Origin: an uncultured Flavonifractor sp.
Lineage (GTDB): Bacteria; Bacillota; Clostridia; Oscillospirales; Oscillospiraceae
DNA length: 59,085 bases
Reading direction: 5' to 3'
Assembly (NCBI GenBank): GCA_944383135.1
Contig: CALWOL010000003.1
Location: forward strand, 1 to 59,085
The notes under the pieces are model-generated. The model did no database searches. It was given only the letters and a program-made list of their open reading frames with translations, and had not been told where the DNA came from. Below are positions 20,769-39,627 of this stretch, one piece after another (position 1 is the stretch's first letter; each line of letters opens with the position of its first letter). Position numbers and translations under genes: made by a program.

Positions 20769-20773
20769 ACAGC

Positions 20774-23061: not shown

Positions 23062-23099
23062 GCGCAGCCCTCTTTTTTCGTCAGAATACCTCCCATTTC

Positions 23100-23128
23100 T
23101 TGCTTTTCTTGCCGCTTTGTACTACAAT
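23100..23128 (+). promoter_or_regulatory. Promoter of the SLH-M15 peptidase gene
   Basis: TTGCTT (23100-23105), 17-nt spacer, TACAAT (23123-23128), 38 nt before the start. Back-to-back with the rlmA promoter. Confidence 0.65.
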
Positions 23129-23166
23129 CAACCCATGAAATTTGAGAAGGAGTGTGAGGATTTCCC

Positions 23167-24657: not shown

Positions 24658-24798
24658 GGCTTTCGTCACAAACCTTTTATATTCTGTTCACAGTCCGTTC
24701 ACCAATGAGAGAGGACCGTCGTGTATGATGAGGATGTCAGGAAGAAATGACAAACCAACCTCCTCTCTACTCTCTCTTTTACCTCTCTATTCACACAC

Positions 24799-24845
24799 AA
24801 CCGAACGGGCCCGCTCCCAAGGGAGCGGGCCCGTTCGGTTTTTCT
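24799..24845 (+). terminator. Strong terminator after the SLH-M15 gene
   Basis: Perfect 20-bp stem, 24799-24818 with 24821-24840, two-base loop, then TTTCTTTTTG. The 24658-24798 stretch before it holds no gene. Confidence 0.9.
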
Positions 24846-24913
24846 TTTTGTTGCACATAAGCGTGCAAAAGACAGCCGGGTTTTCCGCTTTAAAGAAAGG
24901 AGGAGACACAGAA

Positions 24914-25186
24914 ATGCTTACCATTCTTGAACTTGCGGCCCGGCCGGACGGCGGCCACGGGGTGCAGCGGCAGAGTCACCGGACGGAATGCTGGTTGGAG
25001 GGCTGGGTGGCGGTCCCGCCCCAGCTGGAGGAGGCGGTATGGAGCTGCCGGGGGTATTGTCAGCTGGAGCTCCAGGACGGGGTACTCACCGGTATCATTC
25101 CCCTGGACCCCCCCGTCCTCCCGGAAGCGGAGCCCGGGGCGGAAACGCTGCTGGATATTGTATTGGGGGTGGATGAAGATGAGTGA
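24914..25186 (+). CDS. Small phage-type protein, first gene of the lysis cassette
   Basis: A 90-residue acidic soluble protein of no named family. It opens MLTILELAARPDGGHGVQ and ends with an Asp/Glu-rich tail. Similar short proteins occur before tail-associated carbohydrate-binding and endolysin genes in clostridial prophages; that is family recollection, not tested here. ATG 24914 follows AAAGGAGGAG. Its stop lies inside the beginning of the next gene, so the two are translationally coupled. Confidence 0.65.
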   Translation: MLTILELAARPDGGHGVQRQSHRTECWLEGWVAVPPQLEEAVWSCRGYCQLELQDGVLTGIIPLDPPVLPEAEPGAETLLDIVLGVDEDE

Positions 25187-25619
25187 CCGCAGACTGCGGG
25201 CGGAGCAGCTCCGCCGGGCCTTGCAGCTCTTCGCCGCCGCCCTGCCGGAGGAGCAGGCCCTGGAGATACCCACCCTGTTTCCCGCCTACCAAGCGGGGCG
25301 GACTTACGCCGCCGGGGAATATCTGACCTGGGGAACCAACGCAGTGGGTGACCCGCAGCTCTATCGGGTGGCCCAAAGCCACACCAGCGCCCCCCAGTGG
25401 TCCCCGGACTCCAACCCCGCCCTGTATACCGCCCTGGGGCTGGACAGCCAGGGCTATCCCATCTGGTCTCAGCCCGCCGGCACCCACGATGCCTACCGCC
25501 AGGGAGACATCGTCCGCTACAACGACACCCTGTACCGCTCCCTGCTGGACGGGAACGTCTGGTCCCCAGAGGCATATCCTGAAGGGTGGGAGGTGTATCG
25601 CCATGCTGAACAGCCGTAA
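25179..25619 (+). CDS. Phage-tail-type carbohydrate-binding (CBM5/12-like) protein
   Basis: A 146-residue protein. Residues 1-30 are helical. The rest contains two short repeats of the CBM5/12 type seen in phage tail proteins and chitinases: PAYQAGRTYAAGEYLTWG with PQLYRVAQSHTS, then HDAYRQGDIVRYNDTLYRS with an aromatic ending (YPEGWEVY). These aromatic motifs bind polysaccharide. ATG 25179 follows GGGGGTGG by six bases; ATG 25173, two codons earlier, is equally in frame. It overlaps both neighbours, as expected of a compact phage cassette. Confidence 0.75.
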   Translation: MSDRRLRAEQLRRALQLFAAALPEEQALEIPTLFPAYQAGRTYAAGEYLTWGTNAVGDPQLYRVAQSHTSAPQWSPDSNPALYTALGLDSQGYPIWSQPAGTHDAYRQGDIVRYNDTLYRSLLDGNVWSPEAYPEGWEVYRHAEQP

Positions 25620-26241
25620 CATTGACGACCTCCGTCCCGATGTGGCCGCCAACTGCCGGATCTGGACGGAACTATGCCGGCAGGCGGGGCTGGCGGTGCT
25701 GGTCACCGGCACCGTCCGGGATGAGGAATACCAGCTCTACTGCTATCACAACGGCACCAGCAAATCCAAAGTGCCCAGCTTCCACAGCGTGAAGGCGGGG
25801 CTGGCCTTTGACTTCTGCAAGAACGTGAAGGGCCATGAGTACGACGACCTGGCCTTTTTTCAAAAGGCCGCCGCCGTGGCCAAGGAAATGGGGTTTGAGT
25901 GGGGGGGCGACTGGAAGTCCTTCCCCGACCGGCCTCACCTGCAATGGAGTAACGGAGGGAAGTACACCAGCGCCATGGTGCGCGCGGGACAGTATCCCCC
26001 CGCCATGCCCCTGTACCGCAAGCCGGAGGCTCCCCATCAGGAGGAGGACAAGGAGGAGAACGACATGATTTTATACCACCAGCTCAAGGAGATGCCCGAC
26101 TGGGCCCGGCCCAGTGTGGAAAAAGCGGTGGCCCTGGGGGTCATCAACCAGACCGCCGACGGCCAGGTGAGCATTTATGAGCCCAATTTGCAGACCATCG
26201 TGCTGTTGGACCGGCTGGGCCTGTTTGACAAGGAGGGATGA
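25603..26241 (+). CDS. Phage-type endolysin, peptidase M15C domain
   Basis: Peptidoglycan L,D-endopeptidase of the M15C/CwlK type, 212 residues. Zinc-site motifs are FHSVKAGLAFDF (His and Asp ligands, about residues 61-72) and the late DRPHLQW (His). A linker rich in Glu/Asp (about 140-155) leads to a C-terminal 55-residue module, MPDWARPSVEKAVALGVIN, resembling wall-binding tails of clostridial phage lysins. There is no signal peptide, consistent with holin-dependent release. ATG 25603 follows GGGAGGTG and overlaps the preceding gene by 17 nt. Confidence 0.85.
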   Translation: MLNSRNIDDLRPDVAANCRIWTELCRQAGLAVLVTGTVRDEEYQLYCYHNGTSKSKVPSFHSVKAGLAFDFCKNVKGHEYDDLAFFQKAAAVAKEMGFEWGGDWKSFPDRPHLQWSNGGKYTSAMVRAGQYPPAMPLYRKPEAPHQEEDKEENDMILYHQLKEMPDWARPSVEKAVALGVINQTADGQVSIYEPNLQTIVLLDRLGLFDKEG

Positions 26242-26244
26242 GCC

Positions 26245-26433
26245 GTGTTGGAGCGGCTGAAAAAGCTGATTGATGTAAAAAGCATCGTCACCATCTCCCT
26301 CACCGCCGTGTTCGCCTATCTGGCGGCCACGGGCAAGGTGCAGGTGGAGCAGTTCCTGACGGTGTTTACCGTCATCATCGCCTTCTATTTCGGCACCCAG
26401 GCCCAGAAGGCGGCAGGGAGCAAGGGGGAGTAG
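26245..26433 (+). CDS. Holin-like small membrane protein
   Basis: A 62-residue protein with two hydrophobic segments (about 12-28 and 36-50) and charged ends. Its size, topology and position directly after an endolysin are those of a phage holin. GTG 26245 follows AGGAGG by eight bases. The endolysin-holin gap is only 3 nt. Sequence similarity alone would not identify it. Confidence 0.7.
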   Translation: MLERLKKLIDVKSIVTISLTAVFAYLAATGKVQVEQFLTVFTVIIAFYFGTQAQKAAGSKGE

Positions 26434-26436
26434 GCC

Positions 26437-26754
26437 ATGGGAGCGCAGGAATGTTCCACGCCCGGCGGAATTTGCTCCACAGCGGCGCGGATGGAGGCGC
26501 TGGAGCGGCAGATGCAGACGGAAAAGGCGGAACGCTCCCGCGCTCACGAGAAAATCTATGACCGGCTGGGCGAGCTGGAGCGGGGGATGACGGCGGTCAC
26601 CACCCAATACAGCCAGATCATCGCCCAGCTGGCCACCATGTCCGCCGATTTGAACACGCTGAAGGACAGGCCCTCCCGCCGGTGGGAAACGGTGGTGGCC
26701 GCCTTGATTACCGGGGTGGTGGGATATCTGCTGGCCCGGCTGGGCCTGAACTGA
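26437..26754 (+). CDS. XhlA-like phage membrane-anchored coiled-coil protein
   Basis: A 105-residue protein: residues 15-75 are a heptad-type coiled coil (MEALERQMQTEKAERSRAHEK and onward) and residues 84-104 a single membrane anchor (VVAALITGVVGYLLARLGL). This is the layout of the haemolysin XhlA family, which assists holin and endolysin in PBSX-type phages. It starts 3 nt after the holin-like gene and closes the cassette before a strong terminator. Confidence 0.72.
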   Translation: MGAQECSTPGGICSTAARMEALERQMQTEKAERSRAHEKIYDRLGELERGMTAVTTQYSQIIAQLATMSADLNTLKDRPSRRWETVVAALITGVVGYLLARLGLN

Positions 26755-26768: not shown

Positions 26769-26801
26769 GGGGCCTGCCGCTTGTGCGGCAGGCCCCTTTT
26801 T
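26769..26801. terminator. Bidirectional terminator between lysis cassette and integrase
   Basis: Perfect 12-bp stem GGGGCCTGCCGC/GCGGCAGGCCCC with TTGT loop and TTTTT (26797-26801). The convergent integrase ends at 26800, inside the T-run. Confidence 0.85.
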
Positions 26802-27948
26802 ATGCCTTCCGATCCGCAATATAGGCGGCCACGGTGCTGAGCACCTCCTGATGGGTCTGGTCAAAAATATGGGTGTACACCCGTCCGGTAATGGCACAGT
26901 CTTTGTGCCCTAAAGCCTTGCCGATGTCCAGCAGAGGGACATGGGCGCTGTTGGCCACGCTGGCAAAGGTATGGCGCAGGCCGTGGATGGTGATGGGAGG
27001 CAGGCCCCGCTCCTGAATAAAGCGGTGGAAGGCGGCAGTCACCCGATTGGGGTCGCTGGGACCGCCGTCCGGCCGCACCACCACGTAGCCGCTGTCCAGC
27101 CAGCGGGGGTCTCCCCGCTTGCATCCAGCCTGCCGCCGGGCCTCCCGGCGGAGCAGGTCCTCCAGGTCCTCCAGTCCGGCAATCCCCAGCCTGCGGATGG
27201 AATGGCTGGTTTTGGGCTGCTTCTGGACTACCGCGCCGCCGGCGGTGGTGCGGACGGAGCGGATGTAGATGAGGTGCCGCTCCAAATCCACGTTCTCCCA
27301 CCGCAGGCCGCAGATTTCGCTGCGGCGCAGGCCCAGATAACCCGCCAGCTTGACCACAAGCTCCAGGGGGTGGCGCTCCACCTGGCGGAACAGAGTATTC
27401 AGCTGTTCCGGGGTGTAGAAATATTGTTGGGGACAGGACAGGCGGGGCGGCTCCACCCGGTCCACCGGATTTTCCGGCAGGACGCCCTGGCGATAGGCAA
27501 CCTTTAACGCGGTGTGGAGGAGAATATGGTGCTTGTGGACGGTATTGGTGCTCAGTCCCTTCTCCCGCTGCACGTCCCCGTAATAGCGCTGGATGCGGCG
27601 GGCGTCCAGCTCCCGGAGAGGGAGCCGGCCCAGAACAGGAATGATGTGGTTTCTGGCAATGTTCCGGTAGCAATAGTAGGTGGTGCTCTCCCGGTTGGGG
27701 CGGATAACCTCCTCCAGCCAGTAGTCCAGCCACTCCCCCACCGTAATCCGGGTGGGGGCGTGCAGGCGGTGCTGGAGCCGCTGCAGTTCAAATTCGCACA
27801 GAGCCTCTCTGGCATCGTCCAGACTGAGAAAGGTCTTGGCGCCCCGAATACGGCGGCCGGCGCCGTCCTTGCCATAGTCAAAATAGACGTAGTAACGGGT
27901 CTTCTCCTCGTCAAAGGCCAGATTTTTTTCAATTCGTTTCCTTGCCAT
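26800..27948 (-). CDS. Phage-type tyrosine recombinase/integrase
   Basis: Site-specific recombinase of 382 residues. N-terminal arm-binding region (1-60), SAM-like core-binding domain (about 68-155), catalytic domain (about 175-375). Catalytic residues visible: R208 in LGLRRSEICGLRW, K246 candidate in QPKTSHS, H322 and R325 in HGLRHTF, H348 in LGHKD, nucleophile Y358 in RVYTHIF. All are intact. ATG 27948 follows AGAGGA. No promoter is obvious. It lies 136 bp from the inverted repeat at the SLH-A 5' end, so it is a candidate but unproven mediator of inversion there, or the integrase of the remnant prophage. Confidence 0.93.
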   Translation of the reverse strand: MARKRIEKNLAFDEEKTRYYVYFDYGKDGAGRRIRGAKTFLSLDDAREALCEFELQRLQHRLHAPTRITVGEWLDYWLEEVIRPNRESTTYYCYRNIARNHIIPVLGRLPLRELDARRIQRYYGDVQREKGLSTNTVHKHHILLHTALKVAYRQGVLPENPVDRVEPPRLSCPQQYFYTPEQLNTLFRQVERHPLELVVKLAGYLGLRRSEICGLRWENVDLERHLIYIRSVRTTAGGAVVQKQPKTSHSIRRLGIAGLEDLEDLLRREARRQAGCKRGDPRWLDSGYVVVRPDGGPSDPNRVTAAFHRFIQERGLPPITIHGLRHTFASVANSAHVPLLDIGKALGHKDCAITGRVYTHIFDQTHQEVLSTVAAYIADRKA

Positions 27949-28038
27949 ACGATCCTCTCTTTTCTCTCTGTAATGGATAGGGACCCCCTTCTCCCGCCGC
28001 TTCCCCGGACGGCAGACAACCGGAATGGCTACCTCCAT

Positions 28039-28070
28039 CCCCCGCAGCCCTTGGGCCGCGGGGGATTTTT
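28039..28070 (+). terminator. Terminator immediately upstream of SLH-A
   Basis: CCCCCGC (28039-28045) pairs with GCGGGGG (28058-28064), inner CCC/GGG, then ATTTTT. It is oriented to stop plus-strand transcription 15 bp before the inverted repeat, so no read-through should reach SLH-A. Confidence 0.7.
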
Positions 28071-28084
28071 CCGCTTTGACACAA

Positions 28085-28233
28085 GAGGTCTCCTCTCCTA
28101 GTGGACGAAAATTTTAGAAGGAGGAATTTCCGATGAGAAACCTCAAGCGGGCGCTGAGCCTGGCTCTGGCTGCCATGATGCTGATCGGCATGATGGTTGT
28201 CTCCGCCGGCGCGGCTTCCAAGGATTTCACCGA
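28085..28233 (+). repeat. Inverted repeat IR-A over leader, RBS and signal peptide of SLH-A
   Basis: 149 bp matched in inverse orientation at 34364-34512, with only a few mismatches and no gaps. It includes a 64-nt identical run (28106-28169) covering the RBS AGAAGGAGG and codons 1-12. Confidence 0.9.
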
Positions 28234-30724
28234 CAAGGGTGAGATCACCCATTCCGAGGCTGTCAACACTCTGGTTGCTCTGAATGTCATCAGCGGCAAG
28301 GGCGACGGCAGCTACTTCGACCCCACCGGCACCCTGACCCGTGCCGAGATGGCCAAGCTGATCACCTACGTGCTGAACGGCGGTGTGGAGCCTGTGCTGG
28401 GCACCAAGGTCACTCCTACTTACAGTGACATTGACGGCCACTGGGCCGAGGCCTACATTGAGTACTGCACCAGCATGAACATCATTGTGGGCGACGGCAC
28501 CGGCAAGTTCAACCCCGAGGGCACCCTGACCGCTTCTCAGTGCGCCAAGATGCTGCTCACCGCCATGAACTACAAGGACGACGTGTTCGGCTTCCTGGGC
28601 AGCTCCTGGGAGATCAACGTCAACCGTGAGGCCAATGCCGCCGGCCTGTACAAGGAGCTGGGCAGCATCGCCGCCTCTTCCTCCATCAGCCGCGACGACG
28701 CCGCTCAGATGGTGTACAACGCCATCCAGGCGGACACCATGAAGCTGTCCTGGGACCAGAATATGACCACCGGTCAGATTACCCAGCAGTACAACCCCGA
28801 TGGCCCCTCCCTGTTTGAGGACAAGTTCGAGGGTCTGGTTTGGATCGGCACCTTCGTGGGCGACAGCAACACCGACTCCACCATCACCGACGGCGAGATC
28901 CGTGTGAATGGCAAGCTGGACAGCAGCAACGGCGATGACTCTAATGCGGACTTCCCCTATGATCTGGACCTGTCCAACATCGGCGAGCAGGTGAAGGTCC
29001 TCTTCAAGGACGGCACCGGCGGCCAGAAGGATGCGCCCGACAAGAAGGACACCATCTACGGCGTGTACAACACCGGCTCCACCCAGGTTGTCAACGCGAC
29101 TCTGGGCAGCATGAAGGACCAGAAGTCTGCTGACGCCAAGATTAACGTGGGCGGCACCAAGTACAACACCGCGGACACTGTGGACGTGGTTTATAACTAC
29201 GACGTTGCCAAGACTGTTGCTGGCGTGTCCGCCAAGGGCGCCACTGACACCAACAGCGATCTGACTGATCGGCTGAAGAAGGCCAACGGCGACACCGTGA
29301 AGTTTGTCTTCAACTCCGACGGCAAGATTACCACCGCTTATGTGACGAACAGCGTCCTGACCTATGTCACCGCTGTGAACAACGAGAAGGTCAGCATCAG
29401 CGGCATCGGCTCTCTCACCGTTGCCGACCACGACATCTACTCCGGCATTGCCAAGAATGATATTGTCGTGGTGACCACCCTGTATACTCCCGGCGACGCT
29501 GACGGCGATGACGCTTACAACATCGTGAAGAAGGCCGAGGTCGTTTCCGGCACCGTGACCGGCTACAAGAACCAGGAGAGCGTCACTCTGGACGGCACCG
29601 TCTATAAGATTTACAACGGCGCTGACATGAAGACCAGCATGGCTGGCGAGACCGGCATCAAGGCCTTCAACGAGGCTGGTCAGGACTACATTGGCGAGAC
29701 CTTCGACCTGTACCTGGTGAACGGCTATGTGGCCTTCGCGGTGCAGACCTCCGAGTCCGCCAGCAACTACTCCCTGGTCACTGCCAGCAACAAGAAGGAT
29801 CTCGGCGACAAGTGGGATCCCCTGAAGATTGAGGTTCTGGCTGCTGACGGCACCAAGACCACTCTGACCCCGGACGAGGACAGCGACGAGGTGGACGTGG
29901 GCGACATTATCACCTACACCGGCTCTGCTTCCGAGGCTCTGGTGAAGGTGGCCACCTATGCTTCCACTACCACCAGCACCGCCGCTTTCTACAACAAGAC
30001 CTCCAAGACTGTTGAGGGCACTGTGACCACTTCTGACGCCGTCCTGTTTGTTGACACCGACGGCAGTGGCGAGTACAAGGCTTACAGCATCCGCGGCCTG
30101 GGCAACATCGACGAGACCGGCAGGGCCTGCAAGATCGTCGAGAAGGACGACAAGGTTGTGGCCGCCTACATCGCTCTGGGCGATACGCCCGCCGGCGCCA
30201 CCTCCACCGCCATCTACGGCATGGTGACTGCCGACAATGGTACCATCAAGATCGGTGACGACAACTACTACACCTACACCATGTGGACCACCGAGGGCGA
30301 GAAGACCGTCAACGTGAAGGTGAGCGATGCTGCTGTTAAGCTGAACGCCGGCACCATCTACAAGTACGAGCCCACCGCCGACAACTGCTACACCAACACT
30401 GCCAGCAAGGTGGCCTTCGCGACCGGCTTCGGCACGACGATCGCCGTTAAGAACTACGACGAGGCTGAGGGCCTGCTGACCTACTACACCACGAAGGACA
30501 CCACTCCCCCTCCCGACGCTAAGTGGTCCGGCGAGACCACCAAGGCTGTGGACGAGGATCTGGTTGTGCTGTACGTCGATGTGGACGCCAAGACTGCCGG
30601 TGCTGAGATTGGCATCAACAGCTATGACGACATTACCGACCTGTACAACGCTATCATTGTCCTGGATGATGACGTGATTACTCACATCATCGTGGAGACC
30701 TCCAACAAGAAGGACATTGCCTAA
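28133..30724 (+). CDS. S-layer protein with SLH domains (SLH-A)
   Basis: An 863-residue exported surface protein. Signal peptide 1-28 (cleavage near SAGAA). N-terminal SLH repeats at about 30-85, 95-150 and, weaker, 160-205 (second repeat YSDIDGHWAEAYIEYCTSMN) should bind secondary wall polymer. The remaining ~650 residues are acidic, Thr/Asp/Gly/Val-rich and beta-type, as in crystalline S-layer proteins. It uses more GCT, GTT and ACT codons than neighbouring genes, as highly expressed genes do. The RBS is AGAAGGAGG, yet no promoter is seen and a terminator precedes it. Paralogue of 31906-34464, diverged after residue ~34. Confidence 0.9.
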   Translation: MRNLKRALSLALAAMMLIGMMVVSAGAASKDFTDKGEITHSEAVNTLVALNVISGKGDGSYFDPTGTLTRAEMAKLITYVLNGGVEPVLGTKVTPTYSDIDGHWAEAYIEYCTSMNIIVGDGTGKFNPEGTLTASQCAKMLLTAMNYKDDVFGFLGSSWEINVNREANAAGLYKELGSIAASSSISRDDAAQMVYNAIQADTMKLSWDQNMTTGQITQQYNPDGPSLFEDKFEGLVWIGTFVGDSNTDSTITDGEIRVNGKLDSSNGDDSNADFPYDLDLSNIGEQVKVLFKDGTGGQKDAPDKKDTIYGVYNTGSTQVVNATLGSMKDQKSADAKINVGGTKYNTADTVDVVYNYDVAKTVAGVSAKGATDTNSDLTDRLKKANGDTVKFVFNSDGKITTAYVTNSVLTYVTAVNNEKVSISGIGSLTVADHDIYSGIAKNDIVVVTTLYTPGDADGDDAYNIVKKAEVVSGTVTGYKNQESVTLDGTVYKIYNGADMKTSMAGETGIKAFNEAGQDYIGETFDLYLVNGYVAFAVQTSESASNYSLVTASNKKDLGDKWDPLKIEVLAADGTKTTLTPDEDSDEVDVGDIITYTGSASEALVKVATYASTTTSTAAFYNKTSKTVEGTVTTSDAVLFVDTDGSGEYKAYSIRGLGNIDETGRACKIVEKDDKVVAAYIALGDTPAGATSTAIYGMVTADNGTIKIGDDNYYTYTMWTTEGEKTVNVKVSDAAVKLNAGTIYKYEPTADNCYTNTASKVAFATGFGTTIAVKNYDEAEGLLTYYTTKDTTPPPDAKWSGETTKAVDEDLVVLYVDVDAKTAGAEIGINSYDDITDLYNAIIVLDDDVITHIIVETSNKKDIA

Positions 30725-30751
30725 TTAGGGCTGTCTCAGCTTGCTTGAGCA

Positions 30752-30785
30752 AAAGCAGGCTCCCGGATTTCCGGGAGCCTGCTTT
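30752..30785. terminator. Terminator between SLH-A and tail-fibre-like gene A
   Basis: Perfect 15-bp stem AAAGCAGGCTCCCGG (30752-30766) with 30771-30785, loop ATTT; convergent genes on both sides. Confidence 0.8.
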
Positions 30786-30791
30786 CTGCGT

Positions 30792-31205
30792 CTACCGGAC
30801 AGCCAGGTAACCGTAAACCCTGTCGGCAGTGTTGGTGCGGATATAGCCAAAATCCGCATGGTTGTAGACGGTAAACCCCGTATCTGTCAGCATAAGTGCT
30901 GTTTTGTCCCTGCCGGTGGATACCGGCATTTCCCGCAGGGCCAATCCCCCGTAAATGATGGGCCACTCTCCGCCGGTGTTCCCCATGAGCCCGGAGCTCT
31001 CCACAACCAGGACTGCCTTGGGAGAAAAGCCAAGGCTGATTTCCTGGCTGTCGTTCCCGTTCCCGCTGTATGTGCCAAATACAATCCCGCTCTTTTCCCC
31101 CAGCTCCGTGTCTATTTTTTGAAAGTCCGTGTTGAAATCCGTGCGCAGAAAGTGGTCCTCCGGCTCCCACTGGTGGAGCTGGCAGTGTTGTGTGTAATTT
31201 GCCAT
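30792..31205 (-). CDS. Phage tail-fibre-like protein A
   Basis: A 137-residue soluble protein. The N-terminal motif YTQHCQLHQWEPEDHFLRTD with FNTDFQKID resembles the attachment segment of tail-associated proteins in clostridial prophages. The C-terminal ~85 residues follow a beta-rich pattern (GFSPKAVLVV, GGLALREMPV, ITDTGF-like, YGYLAVR) typical of small receptor-binding or lectin-like tail domains. No signal peptide. ATG 31205 follows GGGAGG by seven bases. It is divergent from its paralogue at 31402 and convergent with SLH-A. Confidence 0.7.
   Translation of the reverse strand: MANYTQHCQLHQWEPEDHFLRTDFNTDFQKIDTELGEKSGIVFGTYSGNGNDSQEISLGFSPKAVLVVESSGLMGNTGGEWPIIYGGLALREMPVSTGRDKTALMLTDTGFTVYNHADFGYIRTNTADRVYGYLAVR
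31120..31181 (-). repeat. Inner inverted repeat, copy A (62 bp)
   Basis: 62 bp identical, in inverse orientation, to 31426-31487. It encodes the shared segment QLHQWEPEDHFLRTDFNTDF of both tail-like proteins. Confidence 0.92.
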
Positions 31206-31222
31206 AAGTATACCTCCCTTTA

Positions 31223-31268
31223 CCTCTGCGGACCAGGCCCCCTGGGGTGCACGTCAAACCCGCAGAGG
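31223..31268. promoter_or_regulatory. Nested stem-loop in the divergent intergenic region
   Basis: Outer stem CCTCTGCGG (31223-31231) with CCGCAGAGG (31260-31268), inner CCAGG/CCTGG. It lies in the 196-bp gap between the divergent tail-like genes. It would fold at the 5' end of the minus-strand transcript. No convincing -35/-10 pair is visible in 31206-31401. Confidence 0.5.
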
Positions 31269-31401
31269 GAGTTTTGATACCCTTTTGCAGAGAAAAGCGC
31301 CATCAATGGTACTTTTGAAAGCAAAATGGCAAGCGGCGGCAGCACCCGAAATTTGTATACACCATTTTCCGGGTGCCCGCCGGCATAAAGGGGGAATGTT
31401 T

Positions 31402-31824
31402 ATGGCAAGCTATACTCAGCACTATCAGCTCCACCAGTGGGAGCCGGAGGACCACTTTCTGCGCACGGATTTCAACACGGACTTTCAGAAGATTGACGCG
31501 GCGCTGGGGGGGACCTGCACCCTGGTTACCGGCTCCTATGTGGGAGACGGAGTGGAGGAGCGGGAGGTCTCCCTGGGCTTTGCGCCCACGGCGGTGCTCC
31601 TGTACAACGAGTGGGGTCAGACCTACAAAAGCCCCAGCTATTACGGCGGCCTGGCTCTGCCCGGCCAGCCGGTCAAGGCCACTTCCTACGACACGGGGGA
31701 TGTGGAGCTGGTGGCCATCACGGAGGACGGCTTCCAGGTCCGGCACCACGATTCCACCGGCGGCGGCGGATACGTCAACGCCAACGTCTCCGGTATGGGC
31801 TACTGCTACCTGGTTTTCCGGTAA
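31402..31824 (+). CDS. Phage tail-fibre-like protein B
   Basis: A 140-residue paralogue of protein A. The N-terminal ~38 residues are almost the same (YTQHYQLHQWEPEDHFLRTD). The C-terminal domain follows the same pattern (GFAPTAVLLYNEWGQ, YYGGLALPGQPV, ITEDGFQV, YCYLVFR) but differs in detail, including a Gly-rich loop HHDSTGGGGY. ATG 31402 follows AAAGGGGG by seven bases and aligns with the start of protein A; an ATG two codons earlier is less well spaced. It is convergent with SLH-B. Probably derived from a prophage tail module. Confidence 0.7.
   Translation: MASYTQHYQLHQWEPEDHFLRTDFNTDFQKIDAALGGTCTLVTGSYVGDGVEEREVSLGFAPTAVLLYNEWGQTYKSPSYYGGLALPGQPVKATSYDTGDVELVAITEDGFQVRHHDSTGGGGYVNANVSGMGYCYLVFR
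31426..31487 (+). repeat. Inner inverted repeat, copy B (62 bp)
   Basis: Perfect inverse match of 31120-31181. The pair is separated by 244 bp containing both start codons and the divergent regulatory region. Confidence 0.92.
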
Positions 31825-31840
31825 CGCGGGGAAAATGGGA

Positions 31841-31880
31841 AAAGAGACCCCGCGCCGGTTGGCGCGGGGTCTCTTTTGCT
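31841..31880. terminator. Bidirectional terminator between tail-like gene B and SLH-B
   Basis: Perfect 16-bp stem AAAGAGACCCCGCGCC (31841-31856) with 31861-31876, GGTT loop. Confidence 0.85.
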
Positions 31881-31905
31881 TTAAGGCTTCTGACGGAGCA
31901 AGGAC

Positions 31906-34464
31906 TTACTGGACGTCCAGCACGTCGTTGTTCACGTCGATGACCAGCAGGACAACCTCGCCCTCGCCGTTGGTCACGACCATGGCGTTGGCGTAGTCGC
32001 TGGTGACGCCGTTCACCACGTTGCTGGAGGACAGCTGGATGGAGCCACCCTCGATAACAGCGTTGTCGCTGCTGTCAACGTAGATGTACACGGTGTCGTC
32101 GGTCAGGGTGGCGTCGTAGGTCACGGAGGTACCGGTCACAGCACCGTTACCATCGGTGAAGTACGCGCTGCTGAAGCGGATGTTGGTGTCGGAGTAGCCC
32201 ACGATAGCAGCGGTGAAGTTGGCAGCGCCGCTGGTGGCAGCCAGAGTGCCCATAGCATAGACACTGATGGAGTCAACCTTGCCGTCGCCGTTCACGGTGT
32301 ACTTGATGACATCGCCCTTGGCCAGAGCATAAGCGGTATCCACCACGGTGCTGCCGCCGGCAGTCTTGCTGACGGTGGTCAGAACCTCGCCCTCGCCCAC
32401 GGGGATCTCAACATAGTACTTGTCGTCGTCGTTGGCATCCTGATACTTCACAACATCGCCGGTGACATAGGCGTAGCTGTCGCTGGTGGTGCCCAGAGAG
32501 CCGGACTCCACATAGGCCAGCTTCACGTAGTCGTAGCCGCTGGCACTGTCAGCGTCCACAGCGAAGTAGGTCACGGTCACAGCGGTCTTGGTGGCCTTCA
32601 GCTTGGCGCCGTTGGTCACGGAGTAGTCGGTGCCGTCCTTCACGAACACCACGGCATCGTCAGCAATGTAGTAGGTGGTGCCGCTGGCGGTGATGCTGCC
32701 CTTGGTGCTGCCGCTGGCAACATTGTAGGTGCCGCCGTTAAAGGCGTCGTCATAGTCGGTGGTGGCGCTCACGTCGCCGGCGGGGGCGGCAGTCAGGTCA
32801 TAGTAGCCATCATCGTCCACCTCGAAGGTGTAGATGGTGCCCACGGTGCCCTTGTTGTTGGCCTCCACGGTGGTGGTGGTGCCGTCGGACTTCAGCAGCT
32901 TGGTGGTGTAGGTGTTGTCCAGACCGGCAGCGTTGTTGGCAACAGCGGTCACAACCACGAAGTCAGCAGCGCCCAGGGTGGTGTTGGTGGCGTCAATGTA
33001 GAACAGGTAGCCGTTCACAGCCACGTACTCGCAGGAAGCACCGGCGGTAACAGCGGTCACCAGGGACATGTCGTACCACTCGCCGTTAAACTGGACATCG
33101 CTGCCCTTCACGGCCTGAGCCTTGGCCTCAACCAGAGCCACCTTCTCGATGACAGCGGTATCGTCCACGGTGTTGGCAGCGGCGGTGATCTTCACCCAGT
33201 CGTTCTTGGCCAGGCCGGTGTAGGCGTTCACGTCGTCAAACTCATAGGAGGTGCCGGCGGTGAAGGTCTTGGTGCCCACATAGGTCACCTTGGCCACGGT
33301 GAAGGGGTAAACGATCAGGGCGTCGCCCTTGTCGTCGCCGTCGTTGTCGATCAGATCGAAGGTGTAGGCAACCTTCTTGTTGGCGGCGGTGGCGTACACG
33401 CCAATGTCGTTGAGGGTGTCAACAGTGCCGGTCAGGAACTCATACACCTCAATGTTCTGAGCCTCGTCGGACAGCTTGTACTCGGTGCCGTCGATCTTCA
33501 CCTTCTCAGCGGTGGCAGCGGGAGCGGTGATGTCGCCCACAATGCCGGAGGTCAGCACGGAGCTGTCCTTGCTGAAGATGCCGTACACGGTGGTCTTGCC
33601 GTTCTCCACCTTGTAGAGCACCTTCACCTGCATCTGATACAGGTAGCCGCAGTCGGTGTCGGTGGTGTAGTTGCGGTCGACCTCACCGTCGGTCACGGTG
33701 TAGGTGTACTCGTCCTTATCGGAGTTGTAGCTGACGCCGGTCAGAATGCCGGTGGCCTCGGAGGTGTTGTACTTCTTGGCCAGCAGGGTCTGAGCACCCA
33801 GAGAGTAGTTGTAGGAAATGGTGCCGTCGGACAGAACCTTGTCGTAGGTCTTCTCCATGACCTTGGCGTTCAGGCCGTTGAACACGAGCTGAGCGGCGTT
33901 GTCACGGGTCAGAGGAGTGGAAGAGCTGATGTCCTCCAGGTTCTTGTACAGCTGGATGTCGTTGGCCAGCATGTCGGTGTTGGACTGCCAGCTGTCGCCG
34001 GTGAGCATAAACACAGCGGCGTCATAGCCCAGGGCGGTCAGAATCATCTTGGCAGCCTCGGCGGCGGTCACGGTGGCGTTGGGATCAAAGGTGCCGTTGC
34101 CGCGGCCGGAGATGATCTTCATGCTGGTGCAGTACTCGATGTAGGTCTCAGCCCAGTGACCGTCAATGTCACTGAAGGTGGGCTTGTCCTTGACGCCCAG
34201 CACGGGCTCCTTGCCGCCGTTCATGGCGATGGTAATCATCTTGGCCATCTCGGCACGGGTCACGATCCCAGTGGGATCGAAGTAGCTGCCGTCCTCTTTG
34301 CCGCTGATGATGTCCAGGGCAACCAGAGTATTGACAGCCTCAGTGTGGTCGATTTCATCCGCATCGGTGAAATCCTTGGAAGCTGCGCCGGCGGAGACAG
34401 CCATCATGCCGATCAGCATCATGGCGGCCAGAGCCAGGCTCAGCGCCCGCTTGAGGTTTCTCAT
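31906..34464 (-). CDS. S-layer protein with SLH domains (SLH-B)
   Basis: An 852-residue exported surface protein. Signal peptide 1-28 differs from SLH-A at one position (A22 for V22). SLH repeats lie at about 30-85 and 95-150 (SDIDGHWAETYIEYCTSM), with a weaker third at 160-205. The large C-terminal region is acidic, beta-type and Thr/Asp/Val-rich, largely different from SLH-A. The conserved RBS AGAAGGAGG and leader lie in the inverted repeat, and a strong promoter stands just upstream. By organisation this is the copy now in the expressed position. Confidence 0.9.
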   Translation of the reverse strand: MRNLKRALSLALAAMMLIGMMAVSAGAASKDFTDADEIDHTEAVNTLVALDIISGKEDGSYFDPTGIVTRAEMAKMITIAMNGGKEPVLGVKDKPTFSDIDGHWAETYIEYCTSMKIISGRGNGTFDPNATVTAAEAAKMILTALGYDAAVFMLTGDSWQSNTDMLANDIQLYKNLEDISSSTPLTRDNAAQLVFNGLNAKVMEKTYDKVLSDGTISYNYSLGAQTLLAKKYNTSEATGILTGVSYNSDKDEYTYTVTDGEVDRNYTTDTDCGYLYQMQVKVLYKVENGKTTVYGIFSKDSSVLTSGIVGDITAPAATAEKVKIDGTEYKLSDEAQNIEVYEFLTGTVDTLNDIGVYATAANKKVAYTFDLIDNDGDDKGDALIVYPFTVAKVTYVGTKTFTAGTSYEFDDVNAYTGLAKNDWVKITAAANTVDDTAVIEKVALVEAKAQAVKGSDVQFNGEWYDMSLVTAVTAGASCEYVAVNGYLFYIDATNTTLGAADFVVVTAVANNAAGLDNTYTTKLLKSDGTTTTVEANNKGTVGTIYTFEVDDDGYYDLTAAPAGDVSATTDYDDAFNGGTYNVASGSTKGSITASGTTYYIADDAVVFVKDGTDYSVTNGAKLKATKTAVTVTYFAVDADSASGYDYVKLAYVESGSLGTTSDSYAYVTGDVVKYQDANDDDKYYVEIPVGEGEVLTTVSKTAGGSTVVDTAYALAKGDVIKYTVNGDGKVDSISVYAMGTLAATSGAANFTAAIVGYSDTNIRFSSAYFTDGNGAVTGTSVTYDATLTDDTVYIYVDSSDNAVIEGGSIQLSSSNVVNGVTSDYANAMVVTNGEGEVVLLVIDVNNDVLDVQ

Positions 34465-34512
34465 CGGAAATTCCTCCTTCTAAAATTTTCGCCCATCAGG
34501 AGAGGAGACCTC
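34364..34512 (-). repeat. Inverted repeat IR-B over leader, RBS and signal peptide of SLH-B
   Basis: Inverse partner of 28085-28233, with the 64-nt identical run at 34428-34491. The outer edge lies 22 bp from the -10 box of the SLH-B promoter, so the promoter itself is outside the repeat. Confidence 0.9.
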
Positions 34513-34534
34513 CCCTTCATGAACTTACATGCAT

Positions 34535-34563
34535 ACTATACACGACCGCCCCCAGGCCGTCAA
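34535..34563 (-). promoter_or_regulatory. Promoter of SLH-B
   Basis: Minus strand: TTGACG (34563-34558), 17-nt spacer, TATAGT (34540-34535). The leader is about 64 nt. No equivalent stands before SLH-A. The 34564-34784 stretch beyond it holds no gene. Confidence 0.75.
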
Positions 34564-34784
34564 GCGTTTGGCGGGCTTTGTAACGAAAGCGTAATATAAG
34601 CTCCGCTCTCTTTCCGAGCTTTTTCTTGCGCTTCCATATCGTGCTGTTTTCTCCATGCATGTCACTGTTTCAGACGTCATTGGCGGGATTTTGTTCCCTG
34701 CTTTTTTGAAAAATTTTTGCTTCCGTTGCACGGGGCCGTACATCCAGTCGCCAGGCAGGTTGCCCCGTTCCCCGCCGGGAAAAA

Positions 34785-34815
34785 CAAAAAGGACATCCGA
34801 AAGGATGTCCTTTTT
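34785..34815 (-). terminator. Terminator of the tRNA cluster
   Basis: 14-bp stem CAAAAAGGACATCC (34785-34798) with 34802-34815, directly after the tRNA-Val CCA end; U-rich on the minus strand. Confidence 0.8.
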
Positions 34816-34816
34816 G

Positions 34817-34893
34817 TTGGTGGAGACGACAGAACTCGAATCTGTGACCCCTTGCGTGTGAAGCAAGTGCTCTACCGGCTGAGCTACGCCTCC
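34817..34893 (-). tRNA. tRNA-Val (anticodon CAC)
   Basis: Cloverleaf read on the minus strand: acceptor GGAGGCG with CGTCTCC, anticodon stem CTTGC/GCAAG with loop TTCACAC, T-loop TTCGAGT, discriminator A and encoded CCA (34819-34817). Decodes GUG, a frequent codon here. Confidence 0.92.
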
Positions 34894-34897
34894 ATAT

Positions 34898-34972
34898 TGG
34901 TGACCCGTACGAGACTCGAACTCGTGTTACCGCCGTGACAGGGCGGTGTCTTAACCACTTGACCAACGGGCC
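34898..34972 (-). tRNA. tRNA-Asp (anticodon GTC)
   Basis: Acceptor GGCCCGT with ACGGGTC, anticodon loop CTGTCAC, T-loop TTCGAGT, encoded CCA. Four bases separate it from tRNA-Val, so both come from one transcript. Confidence 0.93.
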
Positions 34973-35011
34973 ATGTTGCCCAAGCGGGCGGGAACCGCTT
35001 CCCATAAATGG

Positions 35012-35043
35012 AGTCCCAAAAGACGGCTTGTGCCGTCTTTTGG
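35012..35043 (-). other. Hairpin between tRNA-Met and tRNA-Asp
   Basis: 13-bp stem CCCAAAAGACGGC/GCCGTCTTTTGGG with TTGT loop, in the 75-bp spacer. It is terminator-like but its U-run lies inside the stem; it may be a processing signal or partial terminator. Confidence 0.5.
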
Positions 35044-35047
35044 GTCT

Positions 35048-35124
35048 TGGTAGCGGCACCTGGATTTGAACCGGGGACACTGCGGGTATGAACCGCATGC
35101 TCTAGCCAACTGAGCTATGCCGCC
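35048..35124 (-). tRNA. tRNA-Met (anticodon CAT, elongator type)
   Basis: Acceptor GGCGGCA with TGCCGCT, anticodon stem TGCGG/CCGCA with loop TTCATAC, T-loop TTCAAAT, discriminator A, encoded CCA. The paired first acceptor base argues against initiator tRNA. A CAT-anticodon tRNA-Ile modified with lysidine is the alternative, but the body looks like elongator Met. Confidence 0.82.
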
Positions 35125-35155
35125 GTTTCTTGCCCGGACGAACAGGGCAAGAGAT

Positions 35156-35184
35156 AGTATACCCGATTCCTCCCCGGTTGTCAA
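35156..35184 (-). promoter_or_regulatory. Promoter of the tRNA cluster
   Basis: Minus strand: perfect TTGACA (35184-35179), 17-nt spacer, TATACT (35161-35156). CTTGCCC/GGGCAAG inverted repeats (35129-35152) lie at the transcript start. Confidence 0.85.
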
Positions 35185-35246
35185 CAAGTTTTTCAAATTT
35201 TTTCAGACGCCTTTTCTCGCCCCCGGAACGCGCCTCTCCGGCGGGC

Positions 35247-35942
35247 TCAGTCAATCTTGTAGCCCACGCCCCACACCGTCTTGATGAACCGGGGATTGCG
35301 GGAGGGCTCCCCCATCTTCTCCCGCAGGCGGCGGATGTGGACCATCACGGTGTTGTTCCGGTCCAGGTACTTCTCCTTCCACACCGACTCAAACAGCCGC
35401 TCGGCGGAAATGACCTGCCCCCGGTTCTCACACAGCATCCACAGGATATCAAATTCAATGGGGGTGAGCCCCAGCTCCCGGTCGTACAGCCAGCACTCGT
35501 GAGTGGAGCGGTTGATGACCAGGCCGTTGAAGTCAATGATGTCCCGGCTGTCGGCGGCCTTCTCCGCCTCGTTGTACCGGGTGTACCGCCGCAGCTGGGC
35601 CTTGACCCGGGCCATCAGCTCCAGGGGATTGAAGGGCTTGGTAATGTAGTCGTCCGCCCCAATGGTCAGGCCGGTGATCTTGTCGATATCCGCCCCCTTG
35701 GCGGTGAGCATGAGCACGGGAAAATGGTGGTCCTTGCGGATTTCCCCGCAGAGGGCGAAGCCGCTGATGTCGGGCAGCATCACATCCAGAATGGCCAAAT
35801 CCAGCCGCTGGCTGTTCACCACCGCCAGGGCCTGGGTGCCAGTGCCGCATTTGAACACGGTGCAGCCCTCGCTCTTCAGATAGACCTCCACCAGGTCGGC
35901 AATCTCCGGCTCGTCATCCACCACCAGAATGTTGGCCTCCAT
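35247..35942 (-). CDS. OmpR-family response regulator (VanR-like)
   Basis: Two-component regulator of 231 residues. Receiver domain (1-118) with acidic pocket D9/D10, phospho-acceptor D53 (AILDVMLPD) and the late KPFNP switch lysine. C-terminal winged-helix domain (about 132-230), with the recognition stretch NTVMVHIRRLREKMG and ending VWGVGYKID. It is close to the VanR/PhoP subgroup. ATG 35942 is eight bases after AAGGAGGG. The likely partner is the VanS-like kinase at 37690-38868, not adjacent and on the other strand. No vancomycin-resistance ligase genes are present. Confidence 0.92.
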   Translation of the reverse strand: MEANILVVDDEPEIADLVEVYLKSEGCTVFKCGTGTQALAVVNSQRLDLAILDVMLPDISGFALCGEIRKDHHFPVLMLTAKGADIDKITGLTIGADDYITKPFNPLELMARVKAQLRRYTRYNEAEKAADSRDIIDFNGLVINRSTHECWLYDRELGLTPIEFDILWMLCENRGQVISAERLFESVWKEKYLDRNNTVMVHIRRLREKMGEPSRNPRFIKTVWGVGYKID

Positions 35943-35971
35943 GGGCACTCCCTCCTTCGCAGTTTCACCTT

Positions 35972-36001
35972 ATTATAAAGGAGGGGCACAGGGAGCGTCA
36001 A
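35972..36001 (-). promoter_or_regulatory. Promoter of the VanR-like regulator
   Basis: Minus strand: TTGACG (36001-35996), 18-nt spacer, TATAAT (35977-35972), 30 nt before the start. Confidence 0.7.
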
Positions 36002-36112
36002 GCCGCCGGCGCCATCGTAAGAAAATCATCACAACTTCCGCCGCCGGCGCAAGTAGTGACTTTTGCGGGGAAAGATGATACAATGCCTGGTATGCGAGAC
36101 AGGAGGCGCACC

Positions 36113-36598
36113 ATGGAACGATTTGACGCATTGCTGGCCCGGGTACTGGACCAGGCCCGGTCCCTGGACATTCCGGTGTCCGGGCGCATCCGTCCCCACG
36201 TGCGGGTCAACCGCCGGGCGGCCACCCGCTTCGGCTGCTGCATCCGGCAGGAGGACGGCAGCTTTACCATTGAGCTGACCCACCGGCTGCTGGAGGGAAG
36301 CGATCAGGCCTGCCTCCAGACCCTGGCCCACGAGGTGCTGCACACCTGCCCCGGCTGCCGCAATCACGGGGCCCGGTGGCGGCAGTGGGCGGAGCGGATG
36401 AACGGGGCCTTCGGCTACCGCATCGCCCGCACCGGCACCTGCCAGGCCCTGGGCCTGCCGGACCAGCGGTCGGCGCGCCACCTGGTGGTGTGCACCAGCT
36501 GCGGCCAGACCTTTCCCCGGCTGAAGGCCTCCCCCCTGGTGCTCCATCCGGAGCGCTACCGCTGCAAATGCGGCGGGGAGCTGGTGCGCAAATTCTGA
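36113..36598 (+). CDS. SprT-like zinc metalloprotease-fold protein
   Basis: A 161-residue SprT-like domain protein. The zinc-binding motif HEVLH lies at 73-77 (LAHEVLHTCPG), with a further His in the GCRNHG region. A C-terminal zinc ribbon shows CTSCG and CKCGG. Bacterial SprT/YhaM-type proteins are poorly characterised; eukaryotic relatives (Spartan) cleave DNA-protein crosslinks. ATG 36113 follows CAGGAGG. A TACAAT box at 36079-36084 may be its promoter. It is divergent from the response regulator and first of a plus-strand run. Confidence 0.85.
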   Translation: MERFDALLARVLDQARSLDIPVSGRIRPHVRVNRRAATRFGCCIRQEDGSFTIELTHRLLEGSDQACLQTLAHEVLHTCPGCRNHGARWRQWAERMNGAFGYRIARTGTCQALGLPDQRSARHLVVCTSCGQTFPRLKASPLVLHPERYRCKCGGELVRKF

Positions 36599-36689
36599 GC
36601 TCTGAGACAAGGATTACCGGGATATTAAGGAGGGACTCTCCACGGAAAGGCGAAGCAAGGCGGCCCTGTTCAACCGCGTTTTCTCCATT

Positions 36690-37697
36690 GTGGGACTGAG
36701 CATCGGGGGCGGCATTCTGGCCGCCCTGGTGCTCTATGTGGGCCGCACCATGAATTTACGGGAGCTGCTGGCGGGGATGCGGCCCCTGTGGCTGGCGGCG
36801 GCGGTGCTGTGCATTCCCTTCAGCGAGTGCGTGGACGCCCTCATCTTTTACGGCATGGGCCGCTCCCTGGGCTGCCCGGTGCGGCTGTCCGGCTGCTTTG
36901 ACGCCACCTGCATCGGGGAGTTTTACTACAAGCTGGGCCCCGCCGGGGCGCCGGTGCAGCTCAAGCTGATGTACGACGCGGGGATGCCCGCCACCGACAC
37001 CGCCTCCATCTACACCTGGAAGGCGGTGGCCAACACCATGGTGTACACCTGCTACGCCGTGGCCGCCCTGGCCTATGAGCTGCTGGGGCGGCGGGAGAGT
37101 CTGGGGGCGGCGGTGGCCGGGGCGGCGGCGCTGATTGCCCTGTATCTTTTCCTGTGCGGCCTGGCCCTGTTCACCGCCGTGCGGCCGGAGCCCATCCAGC
37201 GGCTCATCCGGCGCATCCTCACCTTCCTCTCCCGCCACTGGCGGGTGATGGCCAAACCGGGGATGGTGGACAAGGGCATGGCCAAGGTGGAGGAGTTCTG
37301 CGGCCAGCTGCGGGCCCTGAAGGACAACCGCCGGATGTTCCTGGGGCTGTACGCCGGGATGTTTGCCGAGCTTACCGCCCTGTTCTCGGTGCCCTATTTC
37401 CTCTACCGGGGACTGGGCCTCACCGGCTGCTCCTTCTGGGAGCTGGTGCTGCTCCAGTGCCTGGTGATGGTGCTCTCCCGCATCATCCTGCTGCCGGGCA
37501 ACGCCGGGGGCGCGGAGGGCAGCTTTTACCTGTTCATGGCCCCCGTCTTTGGCCAGCACCTGGCGGTGGGCATGGTGCTGTGGCGGTTTGCCACCTTCCT
37601 GGAGGTCATCCTGCTGGGCGGGCTGTGGTCGGTGGTCCGGTTCGCCAAGCGCTCCGCCGTCCGGCACCATCTCCAAGGAGGCGAGGCCTGTGAATGA
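36690..37697 (+). CDS. UPF0104 / LPG-synthase transmembrane-type protein
   Basis: Integral membrane protein of at least 335 residues with about eight hydrophobic segments, of the UPF0104 (flippase-like, MprF N-terminal) family. GEFYYKLGPAGAPVQ (about 73-87) and the late RIILLPGNAGGAEGSFYLF are characteristic. The GTG at 36690 starts within the first membrane segment and has no RBS. An AAGGAGG at 36627-36633 precedes an in-frame open stretch (…AALFNRVFSIVG…) without ATG, GTG or TTG, so the true start may be non-standard, near 36642. The stop overlaps the kinase start by 8 nt. Confidence 0.82.
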   Translation: MGLSIGGGILAALVLYVGRTMNLRELLAGMRPLWLAAAVLCIPFSECVDALIFYGMGRSLGCPVRLSGCFDATCIGEFYYKLGPAGAPVQLKLMYDAGMPATDTASIYTWKAVANTMVYTCYAVAALAYELLGRRESLGAAVAGAAALIALYLFLCGLALFTAVRPEPIQRLIRRILTFLSRHWRVMAKPGMVDKGMAKVEEFCGQLRALKDNRRMFLGLYAGMFAELTALFSVPYFLYRGLGLTGCSFWELVLLQCLVMVLSRIILLPGNAGGAEGSFYLFMAPVFGQHLAVGMVLWRFATFLEVILLGGLWSVVRFAKRSAVRHHLQGGEACE

Positions 37698-38868
37698 AAA
37701 ATACACCCGTCTGAAGCTGAAAATGCTGCTGTGGGTCGTCGCCGGCACCTGCGTCGCCGGGGCGGTGGGGGTGTTCCTGCTGGAGGTGGTCATCGACGGC
37801 GTGCTCCAGGACCCCCTTTACCGGCTCTTCGTCTGGGGAGCCCAGACGCTCTTCGGCCAGTCCGCCGAGACCGCCGACCAGCTCTACCAGCAGTATCTCC
37901 GAAACAACAAGCAGGAGATTCTCACCCTGGGCACCATGGTGCTGATGCTCATCGCCTTTTACCTGGCCATGGGCCGGTTCACCCGCTGGCTGGATGAAAT
38001 CCGCACCGCCACCCGGCGGCTGCTCCACCCCGGAGCCGACCCGGTGGAGCTGCCCCGGGAGCTGGCTCCCATTCAGGAGGATTTGAACGCCATCCGGCGG
38101 CAGCTCTCCGCCCGGGAGGCCGCCGCCCGGGAGACGGAGCAGCGGAAGGGCGATCTGGTGGCCTTCCTGGCCCATGATTTGAAAACCCCCCTCACCTCGG
38201 TGGTGGGCTACCTCACCCTGCTCCACGACGATCCCGGCCTGACGGCGGAGCAGCGGAGCAAATTCACCGGCATCGCCCTGGACAAGGCCAGGCGGCTGGA
38301 GGAGCTGCTATCGGAGTTCTTCGACATCTCCAAAATGGATCTGGACAGCGAGGCGGGAGAAAAGGCTCCCATTCAGCTGTCCATGCTGCTGGAGCAGCTG
38401 GCGGACGAATTCTATCCCCTGTTCGCCGAGAAGGAGCTGACCTGCGCCCCCCACATCCAGCCCCACCTGGTGGTGCTGGGGGACCCGGACAAGCTGGCCC
38501 GGGTGTTCGACAACGTGCTGCGCAACGCGGTGAGCCACTCCACCCCCGGCGGCCAGGTGGACATTCAGGCCGCCGCTCAGGGGGGCTGCGCCGAGATTAC
38601 CATCCGCAACCAGGGCCTGGAGATTCCCGAGGGGGAGCTGTCCAACATCTTTGAAAAATTCTACCGGCTGGACGCCGCCCGCTCCTCCCGCACCGGCGGG
38701 GCGGGCCTGGGGCTGGCCATCGCCAAGGAGATTGTGGAGCTCCACGGGGGCACCATCCGCTGCGAGAGCAACGGGGCCCTCACCAGCTTCGTCATCTCCC
38801 TGCCGCTGCATAAGGAGGCGCGCCATGGTCTGCGGAGAAACCGCGCTGGAGTTTCTGAATCGAAATAA
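37690..38868 (+). CDS. Membrane sensor histidine kinase (VanS-like)
   Basis: Two-component kinase of 392 residues. Membrane segments at about 11-33 and 78-95 enclose a short (~45-residue) extracytoplasmic loop. A HAMP-like linker and coiled region lead to the H-box AHDLKTPLTS with H162. The N-box NVLRNAVSHS and G-boxes (IFEKFYRLD, GGAGLGLAIAKEIVE) are intact. GTG 37690 follows AAGGAGG by seven bases. Sequence and topology fit the VanS subgroup that pairs with VanR-like regulators such as the one at 35247. It overlaps the following acetyltransferase gene by 44 nt. Confidence 0.92.
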   Translation: MNEKYTRLKLKMLLWVVAGTCVAGAVGVFLLEVVIDGVLQDPLYRLFVWGAQTLFGQSAETADQLYQQYLRNNKQEILTLGTMVLMLIAFYLAMGRFTRWLDEIRTATRRLLHPGADPVELPRELAPIQEDLNAIRRQLSAREAAARETEQRKGDLVAFLAHDLKTPLTSVVGYLTLLHDDPGLTAEQRSKFTGIALDKARRLEELLSEFFDISKMDLDSEAGEKAPIQLSMLLEQLADEFYPLFAEKELTCAPHIQPHLVVLGDPDKLARVFDNVLRNAVSHSTPGGQVDIQAAAQGGCAEITIRNQGLEIPEGELSNIFEKFYRLDAARSSRTGGAGLGLAIAKEIVELHGGTIRCESNGALTSFVISLPLHKEARHGLRRNRAGVSESK

Positions 38869-39529: not shown

Positions 39530-39539
39530 GGCTCCGGCC

Positions 39540-39567
39540 TTGACTTTTCCCGCTTGTCCGATATAAT
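39540..39567 (+). promoter_or_regulatory. Promoter of the radical SAM gene
   Basis: TTGACT (39540-39545), 16-nt spacer, perfect TATAAT (39562-39567). Confidence 0.75.
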
Positions 39568-39627
39568 AATCCTGTTATCGTCCGTTTTTTCGTCTTTCTG
39601 GGAGATCTGTCAGGAGGTTCTTTCCTT

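Follow-up and report, generated by a model that had tools for sequence, protein, structure and literature searches.

The window, by which we mean the whole stretch of 59,085 nt on contig CALWOL010000003.1, contains two genes for SLH-domain proteins, SLH-A and SLH-B, which point at each other and begin in inverted copies of one repeat (Table 1). The copies are 96% identical over 149 bp (E 5e-65), and the repeat has only two matches within its own genome as assembled (180 contigs, 82.6% complete). Beyond the repeat, a weaker similarity between SLH-A and SLH-B extends over 708 nt at 76%. Two small divergent genes lie between the SLH genes, as does a 124-nt inverted repeat (31097-31220/31387-31510), and each cassette thus consists of an SLH gene and a convergent small gene. 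The first-pass annotation had placed the two opposed SLH genes, both of which match Pfam SLH, and their inverted 5' ends where we find them. Its numbers for the locus hold; what escaped it are the GGCTACC repeats, the short core described below and the pair of small inverted genes between the SLH genes.

Table 1. Features of the SLH locus in the window (G numbers denote genomes)
Feature	Position	Strand	Remarks
Tyrosine recombinase INT	26803..27948	-	Pfam Phage_integrase 2e-21; R208, K243, H322, R325, H348, Y358
Arm-type repeats GACAACC (28015), GGCTACC (28027)	28015..28033	+	-73 and -61 from core; fixed spacing in silent sites of relatives
Hairpin with T-run	28037..28070	+	folds with z -3.3
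Inverted repeat A (leader, RBS, signal peptide)	28085..28233	+	
Core AGGTCTCCT, silent site	28086..28094	+	identical in active site; 9-nt core largely shared within genomes
SLH-A	28133..30724	+	863 aa; Pfam SLH 8e-19; promoterless here, i.e. silent; ortholog on promoter side in G013
Small gene paired with SLH-A	30792..31205	-	inverted together with SLH-A in G013
Small gene paired with SLH-B	31402..31824	+	divergent from the 30792..31205 gene
SLH-B	31906..34464	-	852 aa; Pfam SLH 2e-23; at the promoter, i.e. active in the assembly
Inverted repeat B	34364..34512	-	
Core AGGTCTCCT, active site	34503..34511	-	inside dyad (leader hairpin)
Sigma-70-type promoter TTGACG-17-TATAGT	34563..34535	-	similar element at the single active site of 20 genomes

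The best promoter score was 10/12 upstream of SLH-B and 6/12 upstream of SLH-A, in agreement with the earlier claim that a single clear promoter stands outside repeat B only. The sense-strand terminator claimed outside repeat A was also recovered, as the hairpin with a T-run, which would insulate the silent gene from read-through; stems of different sequence occupy the same place in G013, G004 and G009. A terminator at every silent site was considered and rejected: the hairpin with T-run is plain only in G000, G004, G009 and G013, two silent sites of G005 fold with z below -3 and have no T-run, and most other silent sites fold weakly.

The tyrosine recombinase that had been seen outside repeat A was confirmed, and its start, aligned with those of its relatives, is at 27948, 137 bp from the repeat. 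The six residues listed for INT in Table 1 are invariant across 33 aligned rows and are presumably the catalytic residues of the tyrosine recombinase superfamily. Relatives of INT found by sequence in the PDB include 6emy to 6en2, which are Int proteins, and 1z1b, the integrase of lambda. Pfam and PDB sequence searches with the N-terminal part of INT gave no match; in the structural model this part has three strands and a helix, in blocks mostly of 71-82 pLDDT (mean of the whole model, 64), and may be an arm-binding domain.

Judging from their SLH domains, the products of SLH-A and SLH-B probably form an S-layer. Codon bias is strong in both genes, the silent one included (effective codon numbers 28.0 and 30.8, the second and ninth lowest among 45 ORFs of the window chosen by length and GC3, median 33.4), and this fits high expression of each gene at times. 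Ribosomal protein L2 was not found in the incomplete assembly of this genome, and codon bias was therefore compared within the window only. For the small partner genes, Pfam and PHROGs searches gave no family above chance. A small partner protein of about 140 aa accompanies many cassettes; its N-terminus is conserved and its C-terminus variable, and by eye it resembles a tail fibre.

Three tRNA genes (Val, Asp and Met; 34818-35124) lie directly upstream of the promoter side. Phage-lysis-like genes (an M15 endolysin and an XhlA-like hemolysin; 25348-26754) lie between an SLH-M15 gene and INT; the match with G013 is colinear up to 26408, and the XhlA-like ORF sits in an unaligned gap. The switch proposed below may descend from a prophage.

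Distribution of the locus and its recombinase

The 149-bp end had a match in all 20 genomes of the genus searched, the leader-plus-start pattern matched 23 of 30 genomes (0 with the reversed control), and INT matched at 1e-60 in 19 of the 20 genus genomes, 17 of them at an identity of at least 58% (G017 partial); most of the compared genomes are fragmented assemblies, and these counts are not phylogenetically independent. The best INT match in G006 and G014 reached only 51%. Among 300 genomes of the family, 39 had an INT match at 1e-90, and outside the genus only G068, G096 and G222 reached 61-62%. Six of 394 genomes of the order passed 1e-120, every one from the genus; G068, G096 and G222 would pass this threshold and are thus evidently absent from the order sample. 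G096 and G222 are single-contig genomes of two other genera and have the same layout, so that broken assemblies cannot account for it.

A tree of 38 rows, from which the truncated INT of G017 was excluded, groups the recombinases of these loci in one clade of 19 rows (support 100/99); for G003 and G012, whose contigs end near the gene, the SLH linkage is presumed. Relatives of INT at 47-52% were also seen near SLH genes in G089 (L174), G271 (L166), G174 (L172) and G087 (L155), where the recombinase lies between or downstream of SLH genes that lack this leader pattern. These four recombinases fall outside the clade, and their loci are possibly a second type of switch. A search of phage records with the region gave no match. 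Among viral contigs, one of 6.3 kb has the leader pattern, and 14 loci have distant INT relatives at 25-30%; no phage carrying the switch was thus found there.

For a census of promoters, 67 gene starts with the leader were listed in 23 genomes. Seventeen SLH paralogs of G002, G006 and G014, whose upstream regions lack the core by eye, were excluded (among them G002 212048, which does have a good promoter), as were three G005 copies with too little upstream sequence. A further SLH gene of G008, whose start is of a different kind, stands outside the 67. The remaining 47 starts comprise 20 with a promoter scoring 10/12 and 27 without. Exactly one core-bearing copy has the promoter in 20 of the 23 genomes; no active copy was found in the other three (G005, G006 and G012), and the assemblies of G005 and G012 are fragmented at these sites.

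Some of these loci differ in content. In G015, G096 and G222, 11-19 kb separate the sites, and the ORFs in between look glycosyltransferase- or sugar transferase-like by eye; perhaps these segments switch S-layer glycosylation along with the coat gene. The fragmented genome G005 has eight cassette starts, several of them at contig ends (C39, C40, C48, C62, C238, C259 and C289), which can be read as a multi-cassette repertoire. In G004, G005 and G009, contigs end at the sites; we considered whether this points to mixed orientations and rejected the argument, because repeats alone can explain such ends.

Candidate recombination core, arm-type repeats and leader hairpin

The core lies about 39 to 58 nt before the ATG across genomes (45 in the window). 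We compared active and silent sites of the same genome in 21 pairs, leaving the active-leader alignment out of the pair counts. Agreement was 181/189 over the 9-nt core, 147/399 over the 19 bases upstream and 319/399 over the 19 bases downstream. A 7-base core is identical in 18 of the 21 same-genome pairs versus 94 of 539 between-genome pairs; the exceptions, each differing by one base, are the G002 pair and the two pairs of G017. Five further pairs disagree at the first base of the 9-mer.

Arm-type repeats, putative binding sites of the kind expected for an arm-binding tyrosine recombinase, accompany the core on the silent side. Of 27 silent sites, 23 have GGCTACC 60-92 nt ahead of the core, versus none of 20 active sites (Fisher 1.3e-9, a value which, the genomes being related, is not a probability for independent cases). 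Where a silent site has two or three of these repeats, they are mostly spaced by 11 or 12 bases. The silent sites without arms are those of G002, two of G017 and the second site of G068. In G017 the N-terminal 64 residues of INT and the arms have both been lost, a joint loss which, as a single case, fits binding of the arms by the N-terminal residues.

A strong dyad contains the core at most active sites (the dyad is weak in G015 and modest in G019), and silent sites mostly fold weakly. When inversion was modelled by joining the promoter half to the half of the silent gene, the junctions folded at a mean of -18.1 kcal/mol versus -6.1 at the silent site, and the modelled junction was lower in all 21 pairs, barely so at the second G017 site (-20.4 vs -20.0). 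Shuffled right halves gave -7.7 and right halves from other genomes -12.6. The 14 of 21 pairs whose active and silent right halves differ over the stretch compared still reached -13.5 to -26.5. The silent leader thus fits a partner with which only inversion would bring it together. The leader hairpin may serve to stabilise the mRNA.

Orientation of the cassettes and interpretation of the locus

The first-pass annotation had suggested that orientation be compared among related genomes, and the outcome supports its reading. The window is colinear with G013 on both flanks (19714-26408, 26797-28833 and 33853-40016), and SLH-A with its small gene (28085-29088, 29285-31234) is inverted relative to G013 (14558-11406), the inverted match ending at the repeat; for the shared 5' ends and for the palindromic centre, matches occur in both directions, as one would expect. 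Between G013 and G017 there is an inverted match of 3.5 kb at 81.5%, plus a colinear match of 2.1 kb at 71%, the latter because the active gene of G017 is related too.

We also compared SLH alleles after removal of the first 220 residues. The silent SLH-A of the window shares 58% identity with the active gene of G013, 63% with that of G018 (over 110 residues), and 55% and 45% with a silent gene and the active gene of G017, respectively. Since both G017 alleles resemble SLH-A and the active genes of G013 and G017 match colinearly, the G017 comparison is not clean. The SLH-A allele is accordingly silent in G000 and G017, and it lies on the promoter side in G013 and also, as judged over 110 aa, in G018. 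SLH-B had no close match among the compared alleles (33% at best). In none of the genome pairs compared do the two alleles both occur in exchanged places; the partner of SLH-A is a different allele from genome to genome, and cassette replacement has therefore also occurred. As read from the alignments, the difference in orientation is evidence for inversion between species.

The locus is real and conserved, with two alternative SLH genes, one promoter and inverted conserved 5' ends, as in an S-layer inversion switch, which is most likely what it is. We consider it highly probable that the locus serves as an S-layer antigen switch, driven by an integrase-type tyrosine recombinase of its own. 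The switch reading of the first-pass annotation is thereby strengthened: the anatomy is conserved, one core-bearing copy per genome has the promoter in 20 of 23 genomes, orientation differs, and a recombinase clade goes with the loci. In the proposed mechanism, two head-to-head cassettes would lie between two recombination sites, one of which would keep the promoter and the left half of the leader hairpin, and the other the arm-type repeats, the terminator and the recombinase gene. INT would bind the GGCTACC arms and the two cores, and strand exchange at the core of about 9 nt, some 45 nt before each ATG, would invert about 6.4 kb. The silent gene would thereby join the promoter and complete the half hairpin, and the other gene would be parked behind the terminator. 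We infer that INT performs the inversion, that the inversion is reversible and ongoing, and that the active gene forms the S-layer.

In eleven genomes, one contig carries both an active and a silent site; the pair is inverted in ten of them and direct in one (G002). Nine pairs are convergent (6.2 to 19.5 kb), and that of G019 is divergent with the sites 61 kb apart. It is conceivable, and in our view unlikely, that the sites primarily integrate and excise mobile SLH cassettes, with inversion as a by-product of two facing copies. The att-like asymmetry of the sites, the direct G002 pair with INT between its members and the replacement of alleles between species would suit such a role, yet the prevailing inverted orientation and the position of INT outside the pair in the window and in most mapped pairs speak against it. 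INT starts directly upstream of the silent site and points away from it in 15 genomes; it is downstream of the silent cassette in G007 and G019, and G011 has it downstream of an SLH gene with a truncated start. In the G002 pair (L136; G002:C10:299236 and 306918), an XRE-type-regulator-like ORF also lies between the sites, and recombination there would excise a circle. A related idea, which we put forward tentatively and with some doubt, is that an integrase of the mobile-element type has been domesticated: silent cassettes would sit at half-attP arm sites and the promoter at an attB-like dyad, the chemistry behind the local inversion might also capture foreign or distant SLH cassettes into the expression site to give an expandable repertoire, and the mRNA hairpin would check the junction.

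Exchange by RecA-type homologous recombination between the conserved 5' ends, with the adjacent INT a bystander from a prophage remnant, appears quite improbable. A repeat of 149 bp at 96% would fit such a reading, and phage-type lysis genes do adjoin INT, but in five pairs, G002, G004, G013, G015 and G068 (14817), the core is shared at 8 or 9 of 9 bases while both neighbours diverge (right flank at most 9/19). This divergence on both sides points to site-specific exchange, and the INT clade and the arm repeats track the sites across genera. In Campylobacter fetus sapA, recombination occurs within long conserved 5' regions, whereas the locus in the window has a short core and a linked integrase. 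The sapA-like logic proposed in the first-pass annotation is retained for the exchange at a promoter, but the exchange would most likely take place at the leader core of about 9 nt and not anywhere in the 149-bp repeat. It is very hard to regard the genes as two fixed SLH paralogs without switching, whose leaders and signal peptides are alike through family-wide conservation or gene conversion, as the 17 paralogs of G002, G006 and G014 that share RBS and signal peptide but, by eye, not the core might suggest, since orientation differs between genomes, the silent half of the leader pairs better with the promoter half than with its own flank, and core and arms accompany only paired copies.

S-layers are a surface with which phages, the host and antibodies make contact, and the named members of this lineage are, we assume, gut bacteria. 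A conserved and predictable inversion switch at this surface could be the reason why cells of a single strain differ. The switch is easy to test, since active and silent genes can be told apart in a genome by core, arms and promoter. The locus may also exemplify antigenic variation carried out by an integrase that has arm sites.

Comparison with known systems

The first-pass annotation knew of no such switch in this group, and in the open-access main texts searched we likewise found no described S-layer switch in this lineage. The words S-layer and SLH do not occur in the main text of two inversion surveys (PMC5903667, PMC11892184); in the accessible part of the latter, a small inverton is named in Intestinimonas and is not tied there to an S-layer. 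Part of one survey links the arm-binding domain to element mobility (PMC8138268).

In Clostridioides difficile, the cell-wall protein CwpV is subject to inversion by the site-specific recombinase RecV, with a terminator in the proposed mechanism (PMC2784873, in part). Both cases would concern a surface protein under inversion by a site-specific recombinase, with a terminator, in a clostridial gut bacterium. They differ in that cwpV, as described there, has a 195-bp non-coding on/off switch and an unlinked recombinase, whereas the locus in the window has two alternative coding cassettes. For Campylobacter fetus, the title of Dworkin and Blaser 1996 (given in PMC4902306) names an invertible promoter segment exchanging S-layer genes, and the system is also treated in PMC5634654, as far as its accessible text goes.

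On our analysis, two systems are closer precedents than Campylobacter fetus, namely the vpma/Xer1 system of Mycoplasma and the slp segment of Lactobacillus acidophilus. In Mycoplasma agalactiae, vpma has a unique promoter, silent surface genes and sites that lie at -1 to -72 within the 5' untranslated region, and the linked tyrosine recombinase Xer1 is needed for switching (PMC2268961, in part). The locus in the window shares the unique promoter, the silent surface genes, a short 5' untranslated site (with the mismatches in the 7-base core of G002 and G017) and a linked tyrosine recombinase, which is intact except for the truncation in G017. The vpma products are lipoproteins and not S-layer proteins, and arm repeats go unmentioned in the accessible part of that paper.

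The slp segment, of about 6 kb, has two S-layer genes, one at an expression site with promoters and the other silent and promoterless (PMC6015585, in part). Its inversion is named in the title of Boot 1996, cited there, and segment and inversion are also described in the accessible text of PMC5893755. Two alternative S-layer genes, one of them at the promoter, and a similar segment size are common to slp and the locus in the window. The latter further has SLH-type proteins, a linked INT clade, arms on the silent side only, small partner genes and a split hairpin. Our reading is that the locus would work like slpA/slpB of Lactobacillus and vpma of Mycoplasma, but with asymmetric, att-like sites.
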